Shown here one piece after another: positions 26,520-37,770 of a stretch of DNA of 64,000 nt. Below the pieces are notes generated by a model. It made no database searches. It saw only the letters and a program-made list of their open reading frames with translations, and had not been told where the DNA came from. A program made the position numbers and the translations under genes. The DNA comes from Ferrovibrio sp. (GTDB lineage: Bacteria > Pseudomonadota > Alphaproteobacteria > Ferrovibrionales > Ferrovibrionaceae). The stretch is from positions 1-64,000 of the forward strand of contig NZ_JAHBYG010000015.1 in assembly GCF_019636075.1 (NCBI RefSeq), given 5' to 3'. Within the stretch, counting starts at the first letter, position 1. Each line of letters begins with the position of its first letter.

Positions 26520-27071
26520 TCAGAGTTCCTTGAGCAGGGCTTCCACCGAGCTGTCGTCCATCACCTGCTCGCCCTTGGCCAGCATGTCCTTGCGGCGCTC
26601 TGTGCCGGTGTAGTTGAAGGCTCTGTGCCGGCGGCGGTCGGGGCCGAAGAATTCTTCGGTGCGCACGAAGGTGCGTGGATTTTCGATCACCGTAGTGATG
26701 CGCCGCGCCATGGTGGTGGCAGAGAACGGCTTGACCAGGAATTCGGTGACGCCGGCATCGCGCGACTTGATCACCTTCCACTCTTCCGATTGCGCCGTCG
26801 CCATGATGATCGGCACGAACACATTCTTGGAGGCGGGATTCTTGCGCACCCATTCCACGAAGGCGATGCCGTCCATGTCGCCATCCATGTGCCATTCGGT
26901 GAACAATATGTCGATCACATTGTTTTCCAGAAAGGCCAATGCATCCTTGGCATTCTGCGCTTCGGAAACCTTGTTGACGCCGAGCGGGCGCAGCACTTCC
27001 TTAATCAACTGCATGTGGTTTTGGTTGCTATCGAGCACCAGACAGGCAACGTTATTGAGCTTATAGGCCAT
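26520..27071 (-). CDS. CheY-like receiver protein with Glu in place of the phospho-Asp
   Basis: 183 residues: a receiver domain (about 5-128) and a basic C-terminal tail with DRRRHRAFNYTGTERR. Compared with the canonical CheY at 37378 (ISDWNMDG), this protein reads FTEWHMDG, so the acceptor Asp is Glu59. The acidic pocket keeps only Asp14, while Thr92 and Lys114 (VKPF) are retained. There is also a two-residue insertion after the acceptor loop. It cannot be phosphorylated in the usual way and may be locked in an active-like state. It lies 11 bp after cheD on the same strand, so it belongs to the chemotaxis region. Confidence 0.85.
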   Translation of the reverse strand: MAYKLNNVACLVLDSNQNHMQLIKEVLRPLGVNKVSEAQNAKDALAFLENNVIDILFTEWHMDGDMDGIAFVEWVRKNPASKNVFVPIIMATAQSEEWKVIKSRDAGVTEFLVKPFSATTMARRITTVIENPRTFVRTEEFFGPDRRRHRAFNYTGTERRKDMLAKGEQVMDDSSVEALLKEL

Positions 27072-27082
27072 GATGCGATTGC

Positions 27083-27739
27083 CTAATCGAACAGCTCGAC
27101 GCTGCCGGCCTGAGTCTGCACGGCAGTGATCTTCTTCGTCGCTTCGCGCTGGAATACGGTCTTGGCGCTGGCATCCTCGATCTGTTTGACGCGCGCCACC
27201 CCGCTTTCGGGAAAGAACTGCACCTTACGCGGCAGGTTGCCACGCAGATCCGAAGCCAATACGCGGATACCCTCCGCCTTCAGGTAGCGTTCGATGAAAT
27301 CGGCATTCTGATGCCCGATGCCGCGCAGGCCAGACAATACGTTGGCGCCGCCGAAAATCTTCACTTCGAGCCGCTCGCGCCGGGCGCCCACCGAGAGCAG
27401 GCCGTTGATCAGCTGTTCCATCGAATAGCTGCCATAGCGCAGCGAGGCGGAGAATGGCAGGTCTGGGTTGTTGTCGCCGCCCTTGTCGGGCAGCAGGAAG
27501 TGGTTCATTCCGCCGCGTCCTGCCACCGGATCGCGCAGACAGGCCGCCACGCAGGAACCCAGCACAGTGGCCAGCATTTCGCCGGGCTGGGTGGAGACGT
27601 AGAAATCGCCCTGGAAGACCTGCACAACGTGCACCTTCAATACCGGGTCGTAATAGCGGCGGCGTTCGCTCATCGGCGCCACGCCAAAACCGCCTTCACC
27701 GGCATTTGTCCGTTGCATTGTGGCACCAGGGTTGTTCAT
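27083..27739 (-). CDS. cheD: Chemoreceptor glutamine deamidase CheD
   Basis: 218 residues. TVLGSCVAACLRD holds the catalytic Cys, GGMNHFLLP the catalytic His, and KIFGGANV the third conserved part of the CheD papain-like fold. CheD deamidates glutamines on chemoreceptors and in some bacteria binds CheC. The start is uncertain: ATG 27739 (Met-Asn-Asn-Pro) is used; ATG 27718 and an upstream ATG at 27841 inside the pentapeptide gene are alternatives. The C-terminus is SVELFD, close to the end of the protein at 29312-29929 (EVELF). The receiver gene follows 11 bp downstream. Confidence 0.9.
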   Translation of the reverse strand: MNNPGATMQRTNAGEGGFGVAPMSERRRYYDPVLKVHVVQVFQGDFYVSTQPGEMLATVLGSCVAACLRDPVAGRGGMNHFLLPDKGGDNNPDLPFSASLRYGSYSMEQLINGLLSVGARRERLEVKIFGGANVLSGLRGIGHQNADFIERYLKAEGIRVLASDLRGNLPRKVQFFPESGVARVKQIEDASAKTVFQREATKKITAVQTQAGSVELFD

Positions 27740-27788
27740 CCTTGCATCATGTACGTGGGCGGGGCTGGGTTCAAGGCCGGCTTGCGGA

Positions 27789-28976
27789 TCAGGGGTCGAG
27801 GCCGGTTGCATCCTGCAACCCGGCATCGCCCCAATCGACATGTTCTAGATGTGCACCGCCAAACCGTGCCCCACTTAAATCACACGCCAAACGTCTGCCT
27901 GTTCTCTCTCCGCGTGCAGTTAACACTTCTGCGCTGCCGAAGGCTGCCTGGCTGAGGTCGGCAAAGCGGAAATCGATACCCGTCATGGTGCAACCGAGGA
28001 ATTTGGCGCCTTGCGCGCGGCAATCCCTGGCATCCACACCAGACAAATCGGCATATCGAAAGACGGCATTCTCCAAGCGGCAATCACGCAGATTTGCACC
28101 GCGCAAGCGGATGCCCGACAAATCCTGGTCGCGAAAATCCATGCCTGAAAGATCGGCTCCGCGCAGGTTGGCGGGCACGCCCTGGCCGTTGCGCACCCAT
28201 TGCCGATGCGCTTGCAAGGCGTTCTCAATTTCCTCGGCGGTCAGCGGTTTGGGCGGCGGTTCGGCTTCGGCGGCCAGGTTGGCCATGGCGAGATTGGCGC
28301 CGAAAATCTCTACATCATTCAGATCAACGCCATGCAGATGGGCGTCGGTCAGATTGGCGCCTTGTAAAGTGGCGCCGGCTAGCTTGGCGCCGGAAAGCTC
28401 CGCGCCCATCAGATTGGCGCCCACCAAAGTTGCGCCGCTGAGATCGGCGCCGCTGAGATCGGCTCCGGCCAATTGGCAATCGCTCAAGGCGGAGTTTTCC
28501 AGATTGGCGCCGGCGAGATTGCTGCCGGTAAAATCCGCACCCAGAGCATCTATGCCGCTCATATCGGCCTTGGTGAAATTGCTGCCGGTGATGTTCTGGC
28601 GCAGCAGAGCAATTTTGTCGGTGGGTTGGGCGCCGATTTCCAGGCCGCGGCGAAAATTCACGCCGGCCAGCACAGCGCCGGAAAAGTCAGTGTTTTCAAG
28701 GGTTGCGCCGCGCATATCGGCACGCGTGAGATCTGCATTATTCAGGCTGGCGCCTGCCAGATCGGCCTTGAAGAAACTGCTTTGCATAAGCTGCGCGCCG
28801 TCCAGCCGGCAATTGCGCAAGCTGGCATTGCGAAAGCTGGCGCGCCGCAGATCGGCCTTCGAAAGATCGGCGCCGCTGAGATCCTTGCCGGCAAAATCCG
28901 CAGCCTTCCCACCCGGCAGGCCTTTCAGCCAAAGGTGGTGTTGATGCAGCATTTCCTTGATGTCGATGAGATCCAT
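27789..28976 (-). CDS. Pentapeptide-repeat protein, two-block
   Basis: 395 residues made almost wholly of A(D/N)LXX pentapeptides, which fold as a right-handed beta-helix. Two blocks are separated near residue 255 by a Pro/Glu-rich linker, and each block begins with a related motif: HHLWLKGLPGGKAADFAGKD at about 17-36 and HRQWVRNGQGVPANLRGADL in the second block. ATG 28976 is used; another Met four codons upstream is possible. It lies 50 bp upstream of cheD in the same direction and probably heads that operon. Function is not known; such helices often bind other proteins. Confidence 0.85.
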   Translation of the reverse strand: MDLIDIKEMLHQHHLWLKGLPGGKAADFAGKDLSGADLSKADLRRASFRNASLRNCRLDGAQLMQSSFFKADLAGASLNNADLTRADMRGATLENTDFSGAVLAGVNFRRGLEIGAQPTDKIALLRQNITGSNFTKADMSGIDALGADFTGSNLAGANLENSALSDCQLAGADLSGADLSGATLVGANLMGAELSGAKLAGATLQGANLTDAHLHGVDLNDVEIFGANLAMANLAAEAEPPPKPLTAEEIENALQAHRQWVRNGQGVPANLRGADLSGMDFRDQDLSGIRLRGANLRDCRLENAVFRYADLSGVDARDCRAQGAKFLGCTMTGIDFRFADLSQAAFGSAEVLTARGERTGRRLACDLSGARFGGAHLEHVDWGDAGLQDATGLDP

Positions 28977-29311
28977 GCCGGGGCGCAATCCTTAACAGCC
29001 GGAGCGTGAGGAAAGCTGGCCCAGCTGGCAAGCTTGGCGTGAAGCCGAAGCATGAAACGCTGGCGAAACCGACTTTCTGACGTCCCGTCAAAGATGGGTA
29101 TAAGGGCTGTTTTGCGCGCGGCATAGTCATTCTTTGGTAATATCGGCGTGGGTGTGACGGCGTTAACACCTGTGGCAAGAAGCGCGACAGATGCAATTTC
29201 CAACGATTTATGTCTAAATATGACGGGCCGTGATGCATCCTGTTTCAGCGGCCAGCTTCCGGCAGACATGATCCGGGAGATGCTTCAGAGAGATTTTATC
29301 AGGGGAATGGC
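28977..29311. other. 335-bp divergent intergenic region, no gene
   Basis: Separates the pentapeptide/cheD operon from the plus-strand chemotaxis genes. It is more AT-rich than its flanks, with TATAAG at 29099-29104 and TAATAT at 29138-29143, but I find no convincing paired -35. It presumably holds divergent promoters. Confidence 0.4.
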
Positions 29312-29929
29312 GTGGCACGTAAACCGGACCCGGTTGGTGTAGCCAAGGATAGCGGTGCGGTTTCCGCAGCTGCTGCACGCAAAGCCGGCAAGGCTGCTGC
29401 GGCTCCCGTTGTTGCGGCTCATGGCGCTGCAGATATGCAGCGCAGCCGCGAATTGCTCGACTTCATTGCCCTGGTGATGCTGGCCATCAAGGAAGAGATC
29501 GAAGACCTGCGCCAGGTGCAGTCGCGCAATGCCCAAGCGGTGACGCATAAGCTGATGGAACTTGGCAGCGCGTTATCGGCTTCCCCATCGGATTCCCCTT
29601 CGGCTTCCCCATCGACTTCCTTGCCCCAGACATCGGCTGCCATGGCCGGTATCATCGGCCTGCTGCAAGGCGACGATCTGGCCAATCAGCGCCAGCAGCA
29701 TGTGGTGAATGCACTGCGTTATGTGGACGACCTGATCCGCGAACATGCCGGGCGCGGCTGGGAGCCCCGGCTGAGCGAGCGGGCGATCGGCTGGGGCGAG
29801 GGGCTACTGGCTGGCCAGACCTTGGAACAGGTGCGTGCGCATTTTCATCATTACCTGCTGGACCGCGGCCAAAGCAGGACTAGTATAGCAGCCGTTGACC
29901 GCAAGCATGATGAAGTCGAGTTGTTCTAG
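29312..29929 (+). CDS. Helical protein with CheZ-like D-x3-Q motif
   Basis: 205 residues. Alanine-rich start, a long helix (SRELLDFIALVMLAIKEEIE, about 45-64), a Ser/Pro linker with a 24-bp imperfect repeat, then LLQGDDLANQRQQHVVNAL (about 118-136). This last segment aligns with the CheZ catalytic helix around DLTGQ: Asp122 and Gln126 match the acid and glutamine needed for CheY-P dephosphorylation. The C-terminus is acidic-hydrophobic (HDEVELF), like the CheY-binding tail of CheZ. GTG 29312 has AGGGG at 29301-29305. Its position at the head of the chemotaxis genes supports the idea, but overall similarity to CheZ is low. Confidence 0.7.
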   Translation: MARKPDPVGVAKDSGAVSAAAARKAGKAAAAPVVAAHGAADMQRSRELLDFIALVMLAIKEEIEDLRQVQSRNAQAVTHKLMELGSALSASPSDSPSASPSTSLPQTSAAMAGIIGLLQGDDLANQRQQHVVNALRYVDDLIREHAGRGWEPRLSERAIGWGEGLLAGQTLEQVRAHFHHYLLDRGQSRTSIAAVDRKHDEVELF

Positions 29930-30007
29930 CTTGCCCTCACTGGGTATTGTGTTACCTCGGGGCGTGCATTAGGGTTCAACCTTACATTGATGGAAAGCTT
30001 GGTAGTC

Positions 30008-30532
30008 ATGTCCGACGGCAAAGACCGCGAGAACCCGTCCGGTCCTCAGTTTATCAATCCGCCCAACTTCCTGAAGATGAAGGTGGGCGACGGCGGCTTT
30101 GACAAGCAGACCATCAAGGAAGCCGAGGCGGCGATCCAGACGCTCGGCGCCAAGATGTATGAGCAATGGGCCGACAAGGATCTGGGCCGTTTGCGCGGCG
30201 CCTATGAGGAATTGCGCAGCACCAATCTGGATTCCGATGAGAATGTGCAGCGCATGCTGCGGATTTGCTGGGACATGAAGGGCCTGGGCGGCAGCTTCGG
30301 CTTTCCGCTGATCACCGAGATCACCCATTACCTCAGCAATTACCTGGAATATTGCATCAACACCGAGAATGTGAAGGTTAGCCCGGCAGTGGTGAGCCCG
30401 CATATCGATGCATTGTTCGTGGTGTTGAGCCAGAAGATTTCCGGCGATGGCGGCGCCATCGGGCGCGAATTGGTGCGCGGCCTGGAAACCCTGGTGCTGA
30501 AAACCGGCGCCCGCATCGGCGGTCGGGAATAA
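30008..30532 (+). CDS. HPt-like protein lacking the phospho-histidine
   Basis: 174 residues. The segment CWDMKGLGGSFGFPLITEI matches the active-site helix of alphaproteobacterial HPt proteins (H-D-x-K-G-x-G-G-S-F-G-x-P-L), but the His three residues before the Lys is Trp. The Lys-Gly and the following helix are retained, so the fold is kept while phosphotransfer is not expected. It probably binds a receiver without transferring phosphate. The start may instead be ATG 29990 or TTG 29987. It lies 78 bp after the CheZ-like gene. Confidence 0.75.
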   Translation: MSDGKDRENPSGPQFINPPNFLKMKVGDGGFDKQTIKEAEAAIQTLGAKMYEQWADKDLGRLRGAYEELRSTNLDSDENVQRMLRICWDMKGLGGSFGFPLITEITHYLSNYLEYCINTENVKVSPAVVSPHIDALFVVLSQKISGDGGAIGRELVRGLETLVLKTGARIGGRE

Positions 30533-30741: not shown

Positions 30742-31308
30742 GTGGCGGATATCCGGATCATCGAGGCCAGCGAAACCGCCAAGGGCTTGGGCGGGGGCTT
30801 TCGTGCTGGTCGCGCCGGACAAGCTGGCGATGCTGCGGGGGATGCAGGCCGCGCCGATGATATCGTGATCGATGTCGAGGCCGAGGAAATCGGTCCCGAT
30901 ACGGATCGTCGTCCCGGCTTTTCCACCGGCCGCAAACCGGCCCTGGCCGCCTGCTTCAACACCGAAACCGATTTCCATGGCCAGAGCCTGGGGCAACTTG
31001 CGGTCCGCTCACTGTCGATTGTCGATTATGTGCGCGGCCTGGGCCAGACCGAAATGGCCGATGGCGATCTGGACAGCCTGGTGCGCTGCGCCGACGATCT
31101 GGAAAGCGCGATCATCCTGATGTTCCAACTGGCCGGCGGCACCCGCATGGAACTGCGCCAGCGTTACGAGGCCATGCAGATGGCGATTTTCGCCCAGGCC
31201 ACGGGCCAATCTGCAGGCCCCATGAACCGCGATGTGGGCCAGGATGTGCACCGGGGCGTGGCTGCTGGAACCGCCCGGGACGACATGGATATTCCGCCCC
31301 GCCGTTAA
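30742..31308 (+). CDS. Unknown protein of the chemotaxis region
   Basis: 188 residues, predicted soluble. Glycine-rich, flexible first 45 residues; acidic middle (DIVIDVEAEEIGPDTD); a predicted helical core from about residue 75 to 160 (LGQLAVRSLSIVDYVRGLG, DDLESAIILMFQLAGG, RQRYEAMQMAIFAQA); and a disordered tail. I do not recognise the family. GTG 30742 has AGGGA about 8 nt upstream and is preferred to the TTG at 30724. It lies between the HPt-like and STAS genes on the same strand with its own predicted promoter. Confidence 0.7.
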   Translation: MADIRIIEASETAKGLGGGFRAGRAGQAGDAAGDAGRADDIVIDVEAEEIGPDTDRRPGFSTGRKPALAACFNTETDFHGQSLGQLAVRSLSIVDYVRGLGQTEMADGDLDSLVRCADDLESAIILMFQLAGGTRMELRQRYEAMQMAIFAQATGQSAGPMNRDVGQDVHRGVAAGTARDDMDIPPRR

Positions 31309-31561: not shown

Positions 31562-31879
31562 ATGGAGCCATTCGGCATCGCCAAGGTGGAAGACGGCACC
31601 CAGCTCAAGCTGGCGGCCACGATGGATATCCGTGCCGCGGAGCCGTTGCTGAACAGCGTGCAGGAAGCGCTGTCGGCGGGCGGCGGCAAGATCGTGATCG
31701 AGGCCTCGTCGGTGGATCGCCTGTCCACGCCCTGTGTGCAGGTGCTGATCGGCGCGTTGCAGCATATGGAGCAGAACGGCATTCCCTTCGTGCTGAAATC
31801 GCCGAGCGATGCTTTCGTGACGGCATTCGACGACCTGGGCTTGTTTTCATATCTCATGAAATGGCCGGTGCAGACATGA
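31562..31879 (+). CDS. STAS-domain protein of the chemotaxis operon
   Basis: 105 residues, a single STAS fold as in anti-anti-sigma factors. The conserved loop is SSVDRLSTPCVQVLIGAL, where the Ser of LSTPC is in the place phosphorylated in SpoIIAA. It may act as a binding switch toward CheA, CheY or another kinase; STAS proteins are found beside cheY-cheA in several alphaproteobacteria. ATG 31562 has GAGGCGG just upstream. Its stop overlaps the cheY start as ATGA, so the two are translationally coupled. Confidence 0.85.
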   Translation: MEPFGIAKVEDGTQLKLAATMDIRAAEPLLNSVQEALSAGGGKIVIEASSVDRLSTPCVQVLIGALQHMEQNGIPFVLKSPSDAFVTAFDDLGLFSYLMKWPVQT

Positions 31880-32241
31880 CCAAGCGGGTTCTCACCGTAG
31901 ACGATTCCAAAACCATGCTGCAGATGCTGCAATTCGCATTGAAGCAGGGCGGCTACGAAGTGATTCAGGGTGAGAATGGCCAGGAAGGCCTTGATCTGCT
32001 CGACAAGCATGATGTGGATGTCATCATTTCCGACATCAACATGCCGGTGATGGATGGCATCACCTTCATCAAGGAACTGCGCAAGCAGCCGAAGAACAAG
32101 GCCATACCGGTCTTGATCCTGACCACTGAAAGCAGCCAGGCCAAAAAGGCCGAAGGCCGAGCCGCCGGCGCCACCGGCTGGATCGTGAAGCCGTTCGACC
32201 CCGCCAAACTGTTGGAAGTGATCCGCAAGGTCAGCCCCTAA
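31876..32241 (+). CDS. cheY: Chemotaxis response regulator CheY (first copy)
   Basis: 121 residues, single receiver domain. Acid pair Asp9-Asp10, phospho-acceptor Asp53 (IISDINMP), Thr83 and Lys105 (VKPF) are all present, so it is expected to be a working CheY. ATG 31876 overlaps the STAS stop; ATG 31861 in the same frame is an alternative five codons longer. cheA follows 43 bp downstream. Being directly coupled to STAS and cheA, it is a direct CheA target. Confidence 0.93.
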   Translation: MTKRVLTVDDSKTMLQMLQFALKQGGYEVIQGENGQEGLDLLDKHDVDVIISDINMPVMDGITFIKELRKQPKNKAIPVLILTTESSQAKKAEGRAAGATGWIVKPFDPAKLLEVIRKVSP

Positions 32242-32284: not shown

Positions 32285-34546
32285 ATGGATGATCTTCAGC
32301 AGTTCAAGCAGACCTTCTTCCAGGAATGCGAGGAGTTGCTTGGCGATCTGGAAGGCCATCTGATGGCTTTGCAGCATGGCGAGGGCGACAGCAACACGCT
32401 CAACGCCGTGTTCCGCGCCATCCACTCGATCAAGGGCGGTGCCGGCGCTTTCGGTTTCGACCGCCTGGTGGCGTTTGCGCATATCTTCGAAACCGTGCTG
32501 GACCTGATGCGCGATGGCCGTTTGCAGCCCGAGCCGGATTCGGTGGCGCTGGTGCTGCATTGCGCCGATATCCTGTCCGATCTGGTGCGCGCGGCTCAAA
32601 GCGATAGCGAATTGCCGTTGCAGCATGAGGAAGAGGGCCGCAAGGCGCTGATTGCGCTGGCTGCCACCATCGGCGTGAATGCCGATCCCCATGCCGCCGA
32701 TGATGAACTGGCCGCCCTGGATGCCGAGCTTGCCGCCCAGGCCGCCAGCGTGGCGCCGCCGGAGCCGGCGGCAGAACCCGAAGCGCCCAAGGCGGCGTTG
32801 CTGAAATATCTGGTGAAATTCGCGCCGCGCGATGCGTTGTATCAGCGCGCCAACGAACCGCTGATCCTGATCCGCGAATTGCGCCAGCTCGGCGGCTTTC
32901 TGGCCAAGGCCGATGCCTCCACGATTCCGCCGCTGGATCAACTCAAACCCGAAGCGGCCTATATCCGCTGGGAATTCGAGATCGAAACCGATCGTGGCGA
33001 ACAGGCGATCTGGGATGTGTTCGAATTCGTTACCGACGATTGCGATCTGGAGGTGACCTGTCTCAATCCGCCGGCTCAGGCTGCTGCGGCTCCGGCGGCT
33101 GTGACCCCCGCTGCTGCCCCCGCTGCTACTCCGGCGATTGAAACGCCCAAGCCGGCAGCCGCCGCCAATCCGGCGCCGAAATCTCCACCCGTTGCCGCGC
33201 CCATGCAGCAGCAGGCAGCCCCCCAGCAGGCTGTACCGCAAGCTGCCGGTGCTGCTGGTGCCGGTCCTGCTGGTGCCGGTGCTGCTGGCGGCGAGGCGGC
33301 CAAGGCGGTGCGTTCGATCCGTGTCGATCTCGACCGCGTCGACAAGCTGGTGAACATGGTCGGCGAGTTGGTGATCACCCATGCGATGATCGCCCAGCAG
33401 ACCGAGCATCTGCATGCCGACCAGCATCCCGAATTGGCCAACGGCCTTGCCGAATTGTCGCATCACATCCGCGATCTGCAGGAAAGCGTGATGGCGATGC
33501 GCGCCCAGCCGGTGAAGAGCGTGTTTGCCCGGCTGCCGCGCCTGGTGCGCGAATTGGCCACGCTGACCAACAAGAAAATCCGCCTGGAGATGAGCGGCGA
33601 GAATACCGAGATCGACAAGACGGTGATCGAACAGCTTGGCGATCCGCTCACCCATATGATCCGCAATTCCGCCGATCATGGCATCGAAAGCCCGGAAGAC
33701 CGCATGGCGGCGGGCAAGCCGGCGGAAGGCCTGATCCATGTTTCCGCCGATCAGCGCGGCGGCCGCATCGTGATCGAGATTTCCGACGATGGCCGTGGCA
33801 TCAACCGCGAAAAGGTGATGAAAAAGGCGATCGAGAAAAAGCTGGTGTCGGCCGATGCCGTTCTCAGCAACGAGGAAATCGACAACCTGATCTTCCTGCC
33901 CGGCTTTTCCACCGCCGATCAGGTGTCCAACATTTCCGGCCGCGGCGTGGGCATGGATGTCGTGCGGCAGAATATCCAGGCGCTGGGCGGCCGCGTGCAC
34001 ATCCAGTCGCGCCCCGGCCATGGCTCGTCGTTCATCCTCACCCTGCCGCTCACGCTGGCCGTGCTGGATGGCATGGTGCTGAAGGTGGGCGTGCAGAGCT
34101 ATATCCTGCCGCTGGCCAATATCGTGGAAAGCCTGCGGCCCGAGGGCGATCAGATCAACGTGGTGGCCAATGCCAGCCAGTTGCTGCGCATTCGCGGCGA
34201 ATATGTGCCGCTGGTCTATCTGCACCGCATCTTCAAGGTGCCCGGCGGCATCGACGATCCCACCAAGGCGCTGGTCATCATCGTGGAGATGGAAGACGGC
34301 AGCAAGATGGGCCTGGTGGTGGACGAGATCATCGGCCAGCAGCAGGTGGTTATCAAAAGCCTGGAAGAGAATTTCGATCCCATTCGCGGCGTCGGCGCCG
34401 CCACCATCCTGGGCAATGGCCGCGTGTCTTTGATCCTGGATGTCGCCGGCATCAAATATATCGCCGAACACGAAACCCACCGCCCCGCAGCCATTGCCTT
34501 GCAGGGCGGCAAGGCCCAACCCGGCATTGCCTTGGCGGCTTCGTGA
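32285..34546 (+). CDS. cheA: Chemotaxis histidine kinase CheA
   Basis: 753 residues with the full P1-P5 plan: P1 HPt with phospho-His47 (AIHSIKGGAGAFGF); a P2-like region at about 175-260; a long Ala/Pro linker with a 15-bp in-frame repeat (33248-33292); P3 dimerisation (VDKLVNMVGELVI); P4 ATPase with HMIRNSADHGIE, DDGRGIN and GRGVGMDVV; and the P5 CheW-like domain to about residue 740. It phosphorylates CheY and CheB in response to receptors. Members of this clade are 650-800 residues. cheW follows 18 bp downstream. Confidence 0.96.
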   Translation: MDDLQQFKQTFFQECEELLGDLEGHLMALQHGEGDSNTLNAVFRAIHSIKGGAGAFGFDRLVAFAHIFETVLDLMRDGRLQPEPDSVALVLHCADILSDLVRAAQSDSELPLQHEEEGRKALIALAATIGVNADPHAADDELAALDAELAAQAASVAPPEPAAEPEAPKAALLKYLVKFAPRDALYQRANEPLILIRELRQLGGFLAKADASTIPPLDQLKPEAAYIRWEFEIETDRGEQAIWDVFEFVTDDCDLEVTCLNPPAQAAAAPAAVTPAAAPAATPAIETPKPAAAANPAPKSPPVAAPMQQQAAPQQAVPQAAGAAGAGPAGAGAAGGEAAKAVRSIRVDLDRVDKLVNMVGELVITHAMIAQQTEHLHADQHPELANGLAELSHHIRDLQESVMAMRAQPVKSVFARLPRLVRELATLTNKKIRLEMSGENTEIDKTVIEQLGDPLTHMIRNSADHGIESPEDRMAAGKPAEGLIHVSADQRGGRIVIEISDDGRGINREKVMKKAIEKKLVSADAVLSNEEIDNLIFLPGFSTADQVSNISGRGVGMDVVRQNIQALGGRVHIQSRPGHGSSFILTLPLTLAVLDGMVLKVGVQSYILPLANIVESLRPEGDQINVVANASQLLRIRGEYVPLVYLHRIFKVPGGIDDPTKALVIIVEMEDGSKMGLVVDEIIGQQQVVIKSLEENFDPIRGVGAATILGNGRVSLILDVAGIKYIAEHETHRPAAIALQGGKAQPGIALAAS

Positions 34547-34564
34547 CGGTAAAGGAGATACTGC

Positions 34565-35140
34565 ATGGCAAGCTATAGCGAAGCCCAGAACCAGGCCGGC
34601 AACCAGGCCGGCAACCAGGCCGCCAATCAAGCTGGGCGGGGCAGCCGCACCATCCAGTTGATCTCCTTCACGGTCGGCAACGAAGAATACGGCGTGGATA
34701 TCATGGCGGTGCGCGAAATCCGTGCCTGGTCTGAAACCACGCCTTTGCCCAACACGCCCGAAGTGGTGCGCGGCGTGATCAACATGCGCGGCGCCATCGT
34801 GCCGATTTTCGATCTGCGTGCGCGTTTCGGGATGCCGCGTACCGAGCCGACCAAATACAATGTGGTGATCATCGTTTCGGTGGCTTCCCGCATCGTCGGC
34901 ATCCTGGTGGATGCGGTGTCCGACATCATCACCATCAACGAAGATGAAGTGCGCCCGATGCCCGAGATGGAACAGGTTTCCGGCATCGGCTTCATGGAAG
35001 GGCTGATCACGGTGGGCGAGCGCATGGTGGGGCTGATCGGCCTGGACCGGATGTTCTCGGGCCGCATGCTTGAAGCCGCCGAAATGGGCCAGCGCCCGCT
35101 GCTGGCCGGCCCATCGGCCGAGAGCGCCGGCGCTGCCTGA
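34565..35140 (+). CDS. cheW: Chemotaxis coupling protein CheW
   Basis: 191 residues, a CheW fold (ISFTVGNEEYGVDIMAVREI, then GVINMRGAIVPIFDLRARFG) that links receptors to CheA. The first 25 residues are a low-complexity tail NQAGNQAGNQAANQAG from a 12-bp tandem repeat at 34589-34636, not found in ordinary CheW of about 160 residues. The tail may lie outside the array contact surfaces. It sits between cheA and cheR; ATG 34565 has AAAGGAGA close upstream. Confidence 0.95.
   Translation: MASYSEAQNQAGNQAGNQAANQAGRGSRTIQLISFTVGNEEYGVDIMAVREIRAWSETTPLPNTPEVVRGVINMRGAIVPIFDLRARFGMPRTEPTKYNVVIIVSVASRIVGILVDAVSDIITINEDEVRPMPEMEQVSGIGFMEGLITVGERMVGLIGLDRMFSGRMLEAAEMGQRPLLAGPSAESAGAA
34589..34636 (+). 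repeat. 12-bp in-frame tandem repeat in cheW
   Basis: AACCAGGCCGGC at 34589 and 34601, a one-base variant at 34613 and a degenerate copy at 34625. It encodes NQAG repeats. Confidence 0.85.
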
Positions 35141-35150
35141 GGCAGGCGAC

Positions 35151-36032
35151 ATGTCCGTGCAAGCCGGTAGCCGCGACGACGACGACCTGCAAGGCGACAG
35201 GGAGTTTGCCTTTTCCAGCTCTGACTATGCCTTTTTGGCAAAGCTGCTGAAGGAAAAGACCGGCATCGACCTGGGGCCGAGTAAGCAGAACATGGTTTAT
35301 GCCCGGCTGGCCAAGCGGCTGCGCAAGCTGCATCTGCCCAGCTTCCGCGCCTATTGCGATTTCATCGCCGGCCCGGATGGCATCGACGAACTGGGTGCCA
35401 CGCTGAATGCGCTGACCACCAATCTCACGAAATTCTTCCGCGAGAATCATCATTTCGAGCATCTGGGCGATCAGGCCCTGACCGAGATTCGCGCCCGCGC
35501 CGCCACGCGCGGCAAACGCCTGCGGATCTGGTCGGCTGGCTGTTCCTCGGGCGAAGAGCCGTATTCCATCGCCATCACGCTGAAGCGCAGCATGCCCGAT
35601 ATCGCGCAATGGGATGCCAGGATACTGGCCACCGATATCGATACCGAGATGGTGCGGCGCGGCGGCGAGGGCATCTACAACCCGGAATCGCTGGAAGGCA
35701 TGGCGCCTGACCTCAAAGCCAAATATTTCGAGACCAGCGGTCCCGGTATTCCTCCCGGCAAGGTGCGGGTGCGCGAGGATGTGCGCCAGCTCATCGCCTT
35801 CAAGCATCTCAACCTGATGGATGCTTGGCCGATGAAGGGGCCGTTCGACGCCATCTTCTGCCGCAATGTGGTGATCTATTTCGATAAGGATACCCAGCGG
35901 GTGCTGTTCGATCGCTATGCTAATCTGCTCGTGCCCGGCGGTTTCCTGTATATCGGCCATTCCGAAAATCTGTTCGGCATCACCGAGCGCTTCAAACTGC
36001 TCGGCCGCAACATTCATCGTAAGATCGCCTGA
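35151..36032 (+). CDS. cheR: Chemotaxis protein methyltransferase CheR
   Basis: 293 residues. N-terminal helical domain (residues about 20-95; LAKLLKEKTGIDLGPSKQNM), then a SAM-dependent Rossmann fold with IWSAGCSSGEEPYSIAI as the SAM motif, DIDTEMV, and FCRNVVIYFD near the C-terminus. It methylates glutamates on receptors, opposed by CheB. ATG 35151 is 10 bp after the cheW stop; an upstream frame start is rejected. The stop codon begins a 22-bp tandem repeat. Confidence 0.95.
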   Translation: MSVQAGSRDDDDLQGDREFAFSSSDYAFLAKLLKEKTGIDLGPSKQNMVYARLAKRLRKLHLPSFRAYCDFIAGPDGIDELGATLNALTTNLTKFFRENHHFEHLGDQALTEIRARAATRGKRLRIWSAGCSSGEEPYSIAITLKRSMPDIAQWDARILATDIDTEMVRRGGEGIYNPESLEGMAPDLKAKYFETSGPGIPPGKVRVREDVRQLIAFKHLNLMDAWPMKGPFDAIFCRNVVIYFDKDTQRVLFDRYANLLVPGGFLYIGHSENLFGITERFKLLGRNIHRKIA

Positions 36033-36142
36033 CGGCTGGGGTAAAATCGCCTGACGGCTAGGGTAAAATCGCCTGACGGCTAGGGTAAAATCGCCTGACG
36101 GCTGGGGTAAAATCGCCTGACGGCTAGAGTAAAATCGCCTGA
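36025..36142 (+). repeat. 22-bp tandem repeat between cheR and cheB, 5 copies plus a partial
   Basis: Copies begin at 36025, 36047, 36069, 36091 and 36113, with a partial at 36135. Each starts TCGCCTGACGGCT, then R-G-R-G, then TAAAA. The first copy overlaps the last codons and stop of cheR, so the array arose from the cheR 3' end. Each unit holds a TGA and a TAA. No spacers differ, so it is not CRISPR. Confidence 0.95.
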
Positions 36143-36176
36143 AGAGACTAGGGAAAGCGTAAAGGGATTTTTCAAA

Positions 36177-37226
36177 GTGGCCAGGAAGATCAAGGTTCTC
36201 GTCGTCGATGACTCGGCGCTGATCCGTCAGCTGCTCACGGCAGCGCTCGGCAGCGATCCCGAGATCGAGGTGGTGGGCGCGGCACCCGATCCGCTGGTGG
36301 CGCGCAGCATGATCAAGGAATTGAATCCCGATGTGCTGACGCTGGATGTGGAGATGCCCAACATGGATGGCATCTCCTTCCTCGACAAGATCATGCGGCT
36401 GCGGCCGATGCCGGTGGTGATGGTATCCACCCTCACCCAGAAGGGCGCCGGTATCACCATGCAGGCGCTGGAAATGGGCGCGGTGGATTTCGTGCCCAAA
36501 CCCACGCTCGACATCAAGCATGCGTTGGAAGAGATCAAGACCGAGTTGGTGGCCAAGGTGAAGCTGGCCGCCACGGCTCGGGTGGTGGCGCGTTCGCGGC
36601 CGCCAGAGGGCGCCGAGGTCAAGCGCTTGGTCACCGGCCCGGGCTTCACCTCCACCGATCAGATCGTGGCCATCGGTTCGTCCACCGGCGGTGTCGAGGC
36701 GCTGAAGGAAGTGATCACCATCCTGCCGGCCGATAGTCCGCCGATCCTGATCACCCAGCATATGCCGCCGCGTTTCACCGCCAGTTTCGCCGCGCGGCTG
36801 GATACCCTGTCGGCGGTATCGGTGACGGAAGCCAAGGATGGCGTGCGCATTTTCCCTGGCCATGTCTATATCGCGCCGGGCGATTTCCATCTGCTGCTGC
36901 ATCGCTCGGGCGGGCATTACTATACCAAGCTGAGCCATGATCCGCCGGTATCGGGCCACAGGCCGTCCGTGGACGTGCTATTTAATTCCGTGGCCGAACA
37001 TGCCGGCCATAATGCCATCGGCGTGATCCTGACCGGCATGGGCAAGGATGGCGCTGCCGGGTTGAAGAAAATGTTGGAAGCCGGCGCGCAGACGATCGGG
37101 CAGGATGAAGCCTCCAGCCTGGTCTATGGTATGCCGAAAGCCGCCAAGCTGATGGGAGCGGTGCAGGCGGAAATTCCGATCGGCCAGGTGGCGCAGGAAA
37201 TTCTGGCGCGTTGCAAACAGCGCTAG
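36177..37226 (+). CDS. cheB: Chemotaxis methylesterase/deamidase CheB
   Basis: 349 residues: receiver domain with Asp57 (LTLDVEMP) and methylesterase domain with catalytic Ser168 (GSSTGG), His195 (QHMP) and the Asp of GMGKDGA. It removes methyl groups from receptors and is activated by CheA. GTG 36177 has AGGGA about 10 nt upstream. The gap to cheR is the tandem-repeat array, which could affect the CheR:CheB ratio. Confidence 0.95.
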   Translation: MARKIKVLVVDDSALIRQLLTAALGSDPEIEVVGAAPDPLVARSMIKELNPDVLTLDVEMPNMDGISFLDKIMRLRPMPVVMVSTLTQKGAGITMQALEMGAVDFVPKPTLDIKHALEEIKTELVAKVKLAATARVVARSRPPEGAEVKRLVTGPGFTSTDQIVAIGSSTGGVEALKEVITILPADSPPILITQHMPPRFTASFAARLDTLSAVSVTEAKDGVRIFPGHVYIAPGDFHLLLHRSGGHYYTKLSHDPPVSGHRPSVDVLFNSVAEHAGHNAIGVILTGMGKDGAAGLKKMLEAGAQTIGQDEASSLVYGMPKAAKLMGAVQAEIPIGQVAQEILARCKQR

Positions 37227-37377: not shown

Positions 37378-37770
37378 ATGCCTTCGGCCAGCCAACTTCG
37401 CGTTTTGATCGTGGACGATCAGATGAGCATGCGTGGCATTGCGCGCTACTGCCTGCAGGAAATCGGCATCAAGAATGTCGTGGAGGCCAAAAGCGGCAGC
37501 GATGCGCTCACTGCGATGAACTCCAATAAATTCGACCTGATCATTTCCGATTGGAATATGGACGGGATGGATGGCCTCACCTTGCTCAAGACCATCCGTT
37601 CCAATCCACTCACCAAGCGTCTGCCCTTCATCATGGCCACCGGTCAGCGCGATACCGAATTGGTGAAGACCGCCATCCAGGCCGGCGTGAACAACTACAT
37701 GGTCAAGCCCTTCAATGCCGCCACCATGAAGCAGAAGATCGAGGCGGTGCTTGGCAAGCTCAGCAGCTGA
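37378..37770 (+). CDS. cheY: Chemotaxis response regulator CheY (second copy)
   Basis: 130 residues, one receiver domain with Asp13-Asp14, phospho-acceptor Asp58 (IISDWNMDG), and VKPF for the Lys. The WNMDGMDG loop is the type found in flagellar-motor CheY of proteobacteria and closely resembles the Glu59 receiver at 26520, which seems to be its altered paralogue. ATG 37378 has GAGGAG about 12 nt upstream. It is 151 bp from cheB, with no clear promoter seen in the gap. Confidence 0.94.
   Translation: MPSASQLRVLIVDDQMSMRGIARYCLQEIGIKNVVEAKSGSDALTAMNSNKFDLIISDWNMDGMDGLTLLKTIRSNPLTKRLPFIMATGQRDTELVKTAIQAGVNNYMVKPFNAATMKQKIEAVLGKLSS

Follow-up and report, generated by a model that had tools for sequence, protein, structure and literature searches.

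The window analysed here is a 64,000-nucleotide stretch of a Ferrovibrio sp. contig (NZ_JAHBYG010000015.1), and it carries a chemotaxis (che) cluster. Adjoining the che operon, at the head of the region where the initial annotation had placed it, lies a short gene at 29312-29929. Its predicted product, the features within it and its che neighbours are as follows.

27083..27841, minus strand: CheD, whose sequence ends AGSVELFD (PF03975, E 9e-27)
29312..29929, plus strand: putative CheT/CheZ-like protein of 205 aa with a GTG start (open reading frame, orthologues, dN/dS)
29588..29638, plus strand: Ser/Pro-rich insert of 17 residues, aa 93-109, a gap in all eight orthologues
29642..29740, plus strand: catalytic-type helix MAGIIGLLQGDDLANQRQQHVVNALRYVDDLIR, aa 111-143, which aligns with the DxxxQ helices of CheZ and CheT
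29675..29689, plus strand: D122-L-A-N-Q126, the DxxxQ motif (translation of the open reading frame, orthologue alignment)
29909..29926, plus strand: tail DEVELF, of the CheD type (VELF invariant in orthologues; CheD tails)
29987..30532, plus strand: degenerate Hpt-like protein, CWDMKGLGGSFGF (Hpt E 0.002, below cut-off)
30865..31308, plus strand: small conserved che-cluster protein without a Pfam match, about 65% identical to its counterparts in the Ferrovibrio loci L012 and L013
31550..31879, plus strand: STAS-domain protein, CheS-like, conserved part (STAS_2 E 3.5e-12)
31861..32241, plus strand: CheY1-like response regulator, a possible substrate (56% identical to S. meliloti CheY1)
32285..37226, plus strand: cheA, cheW, cheR and cheB (best matches of S. 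meliloti CheA, CheW, CheR and CheB)
37378..37770, plus strand: CheY2-like response regulator, a possible substrate (45% identical to S. meliloti CheY2)

Each gene of the che cluster has its counterpart in L012 and L013. The Hpt-like protein directly downstream of 29312-29929 is kept in both loci (at about 73%) and also in L118; its Hpt motif carries Trp in place of the expected phospho-accepting His, which is thus apparently missing. On the other side of the gene, a pentapeptide-repeat protein (27789-28988) that is conserved in the Ferrovibrio che cluster overlaps cheD, upstream of it. A response regulator beside cheD (26520-27071) has a conserved C-terminal extension ending DDSSVEALLKEL and is a third possible CheY of the cluster.

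Orthologues of the 29312-29929 gene were found in eight other Ferrovibrio genomes, and its GTG start is backed by those that open with V-[AT]-R-K in the corresponding position. Genome profile searches found no convincing orthologue outside the genus, and a search of a plasmid collection with the protein gave no match. Across the core of the orthologues dN was 0.02-0.34 against a dS of 0.28-1.35. The main length change within that core is the 17-residue Ser/Pro insert, which is specific to this strain and overlaps the loop that AlphaFold predicts between two long helices. General searches gave little: nothing useful from PHROGs, and chance-level matches only when the PDB sequences were searched with the protein and with a profile of the nine orthologues. 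One candidate domain, SLATT_fungal (Pfam E 0.04 and NCBIfam 6e-4, both below cut-off), was rejected, an orthologue having no NCBIfam match.

The initial annotation had pointed to Asp122-x3-Gln126 followed by VV. Both are present, as DLANQ and as VV at 131-132; D122-LAN-Q126 is the sole D-x3-Q in the protein, and the C-terminus reads HDEVELF. By itself the motif proves nothing, because 55% of shuffled copies of the protein carry a D-x3-Q and 16% carry D[LIVM]xxQ. The motif, the VV and the acidic-Phe tail occurred together in 0.005% of shuffled copies, a figure for criteria picked post hoc. DxxxQ alone is not significant, and its conservation in orthologues is the stronger evidence. Asp122 and Gln126, on whose conservation the initial annotation had staked its reading, do not vary among nine distinct Ferrovibrio orthologues, and neither do D121, L123, R127, Q128, Q129, H130, the run N133-V138 and the tail V202-F205 (VELF). 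A third segment of the protein, GWGEGL..LExVRxHFxHYLL, is conserved to the same degree as DxxxQ in these nine sequences.

AlphaFold, given three sequences, predicted helices at residues 33-89 and 104-149 with DxxxQ within the second. The pLDDT was 59.5 overall and about 70-80 in parts of both long helices; a model of the core only was worse, at 49.3. A fold search with the full-length model returned generic helical bundles, CheZ not being among the 50 matches listed, and is uninformative at a pLDDT of 59.5. These predictions do not contradict the long antiparallel helix pair on which the initial annotation had made its reading depend, nor do they establish it. The segment around D122-x3-Q126 is strongly conserved and probably helical.

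As a working hypothesis, the CheZ-like reading of the initial annotation stands in that the orthologue profile reaches alphaproteobacterial CheZ, but the HMM search it had proposed found no CheZ: Pfam CheZ (PF04344) gave no match up to E 10, either to the protein or to the rest of the genome. The protein is not a recognised member of the CheZ family. The nine-sequence Ferrovibrio profile was searched six-frame through 385 alphaproteobacterial genomes, and its five best matches outside the genus were all proteins that score above the curated cut-off of Pfam CheZ. These carry FQD[LI]TGQR and were aligned on DxxxQR..VVNALRYVE, as for example in ACNFQDITGQRITKVVNALRYIEERI against LMQGDDLRSQRQQHVINALRYVEDII. 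In hhalign the Ferrovibrio and CheZ profiles aligned at 71-82% along 25-33 columns around DxxxQ; the score was 37.6, and the best of 200 column shuffles reached 23.3. The claim that most Alphaproteobacteria lack CheZ holds numerically, yet the family is not uncommon among them: Pfam CheZ was found above cut-off in 145 of the 385 sampled genomes (38%), often several times per genome.

What the protein has in common with CheZ, that of Azorhizobium caulinodans included, is DxxxQR and then a VVNALRYxE-like helix, along with a likely helical hairpin, a linker and a conserved C-terminal tail. The match is confined to the catalytic helix and may have arisen by convergence. In CheZ the signature AxxFQ stands directly before DxxxQ (PMC7750401), whereas the Ferrovibrio orthologues lack it and read LLQGDDL or LMQGDDL. 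The SQxDIDALFD tail of alphaproteobacterial CheZ is absent too, the tail here being [DE]VELF, and the gene, unlike that of CheZ, shares its che cluster with CheS and CheD. The likeness to the CheZ tail that had been suggested needs correcting: the end is acidic and then Phe, but it is of the CheD type and not of the CheZ type.

A precedent is CheT of Sinorhizobium meliloti, a CheZ-like DxxxQ phosphatase published in 2024 (10.1111/mmi.15303, as reviewed in PMC12654446). According to that review, CheT enhances the dephosphorylation of one of two CheYs only (CheY1-P) and binds CheR. The CheT sequence was recovered beside cheD and is recognised by NCBIfam NF047973 at 225.5 bits; this model matched neither the 29312-29929 protein nor anything at this gene in the Ferrovibrio genomes. 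Each profile test against a curated family thus failed, and so the protein is filed under neither CheZ nor CheT.

The LQxxDxxxQ helix of CheT is present in Ferrovibrio (LQGDDLANQ against LQGIDLAVQ in S. meliloti). A CheT-like profile was built from two cheD-adjacent DxxxQ open reading frames of other Alphaproteobacteria (L108 and L111), which we infer to be CheT from their position, motif and profile linkage. Among 337 genomes its best non-self match was a Ferrovibrio orthologue (E 6.9e-4), and it matched the 29312-29929 gene itself at E 0.09. BLASTP of one of these two proteins against the Ferrovibrio orthologues gave E 4e-4 and 28% across 75 aa, the DxxxQ motifs falling opposite each other. 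Against a wider CheT set (A5), the Ferrovibrio profile scored 25.4 in hhalign, compared with a maximum of 18.9 in 200 shuffles; the hhalign values to CheT were 9-34%, with 34% to the intermediate set. The wider set itself coheres via intermediates, with 82.8% between the part that contains S. meliloti and the remainder. Compared directly with S. meliloti CheT alone, the Ferrovibrio profile gave no significant score, and the link runs through the intermediates. The CheT and CheZ profiles did not detect each other, their score falling within the shuffles. Matches of the CheT profile in the PDB sequence search look like coiled-coil noise and were set aside. Separately, a hypothetical protein that follows cheD on an Acetobacter pasteurianus plasmid (L134, 4583-4984) contains LQNLDSATQ, ends GSVEMF and is a possible divergent CheT.

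Gene content adds to the comparison. In the S. meliloti operon CheS-Y1-A-W-R-B-Y2-D-T, every gene but CheT is matched one to one in the Ferrovibrio cluster, whose CheS-like STAS protein (35% identical to S. meliloti CheS, E 3e-11), CheY1, CheA, CheW, CheR, CheB, CheY2 and CheD are the best matches of their S. meliloti counterparts. CheT alone is without a clear partner, and the 29312-29929 gene is the natural candidate, despite its position at the head of the cluster rather than after cheD. Profiles for CheZ, CheC and CheX had no match in the genome, so this gene would fill the slot of the phosphatase. Like CheT, its product is a small protein whose gene has those of CheS, two CheYs and CheD as che-cluster neighbours, and it has an acidic-Phe C-terminus (DFEAF in CheT, VELF in Ferrovibrio), although it is 205 aa long where S. 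meliloti CheT is 124.

The tail was followed beyond this one protein. In the alphaproteobacterial CheD loci examined (L087-L115), the majority of CheD proteins terminate in G-[DSE]-[VI]-[ED]-L-F, either directly or after one further residue, and no description of this CheD tail, [DSE]-[VI]-[ED]-L-F, was found in the literature searched. Several CheT-like proteins end alike (DFEAF, DVNLF, VSLF, SVEMF); other CheT-like proteins lack such a tail. Within the window the tail is confined to CheD and the 29312-29929 protein, and among 8,452 open reading frames of at least 90 aa in a 1.6-Mb portion of G006, a related genome, it occurs, receptors aside, only on CheD and the orthologue of this protein. 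Apart from the tail, CheD consists of a receptor glutamine deamidase domain and bears no relation to the 29312-29929 protein. Since the tail is confined to these two, a shared binding partner is plausible. Two receptors in G006 end in DWQEF, the usual form of the CheR/CheB pentapeptide, in which positions 2 and 5 are mostly W and F (PMC7390727). That pentapeptide (NWETF; DWQEF in Ferrovibrio) is likewise acidic, ends in Phe and sits on a flexible linker, but position 2 of the VELF tail is Val and not Trp or another aromatic residue.

On the best reading of these sequence comparisons, the 29312-29929 protein is probably a divergent CheT/CheZ-type phosphatase of CheY~P. In CheZ, a Gln orients the attacking water in the CheY active site and an Asp forms a salt bridge to CheY. 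The Ferrovibrio protein would fold as a helical hairpin, and Gln126 would enter the active site of CheY and orient the water in the same manner, while Asp122 would form the salt bridge. The variable linker and the VELF tail would tether the protein to a partner that CheD also binds. CheR is the first guess for this partner, by analogy with the CheR binding described for S. meliloti CheT and in view of the likeness of the tail to the DWQEF of Ferrovibrio receptors, and it stays a guess because of the Val at position 2; the receiver surface of CheY is the second.

A non-catalytic role has to be weighed against this. The protein could be a helical adaptor whose VELF tail and conserved helix chiefly hold on to a partner such as CheR or CheY, DxxxQ then being used for binding and not for hydrolysis. 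The tail and the third segment are conserved as much as DxxxQ, the tail is in common with CheD, and S. meliloti CheT, as told in PMC12654446, has CheR as a binding partner and serves one of two CheYs only. We nevertheless consider the adaptor rather unlikely: the strict Asp/Gln spacing common to CheZ and CheT is most simply explained by catalysis, and the CheZ, CheC and CheX profiles found no other phosphatase family in the genome. Less likely again, and in our view improbable, is a true but very degraded CheZ that has drifted past Pfam detection and lies outside the CheT group. The hhalign values to CheZ (71-82%) do exceed those to CheT (9-34%), and CheZ is present in a second genus of the family (G013), but the match covers only 25-33 residues, the tail is unlike the SQxDIDALFD ends of alphaproteobacterial CheZ, and the composition of the cluster and the co-linear 75-residue match favour CheT.

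Least likely of all is that the protein is an unrelated coiled-coil or helical accessory of chemotaxis whose motif and tail resemblances arose by chance. DxxxQ alone is common, helical proteins yield spurious profile matches and the fold search was unspecific. Against this, the scores exceeded all 200 of 200 shuffles for both CheZ and CheT, and the tail was seen only on CheD and this protein, receptors aside, in the 8,452 open reading frames from G006. The phosphatase reading keeps its place as the favoured one, but the novelty that the initial annotation had attached to a divergent form shrinks, because CheT is a precedent for a CheZ-like DxxxQ phosphatase in the class and CheZ occurs in 38% of the sampled genomes.

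A broader proposal can be offered only tentatively, and we hold it to be possible but doubtful. With a catalytic helix like that of CheZ and a co-linear remainder and cluster like those of CheT, the Ferrovibrio protein may link the two, which would imply one phosphatase superfamily. CheT-like proteins and CheD would also dock alike, through a C-terminal [DSE]-[VIF]-x-[LMFA]-F motif by which the ending of the signal and the modification of receptors meet at one partner, possibly at the pentapeptide site of CheR.

To our knowledge, it is understood only in part how Alphaproteobacteria that lack CheZ end the chemotaxis signal. If a divergent DxxxQ form exists beside CheT, the CheZ-like solution would reach further than profiles can show, and the tail common to CheD and CheT-type proteins raises the question of whether the phosphatase and the deamidase dock on the same partner.
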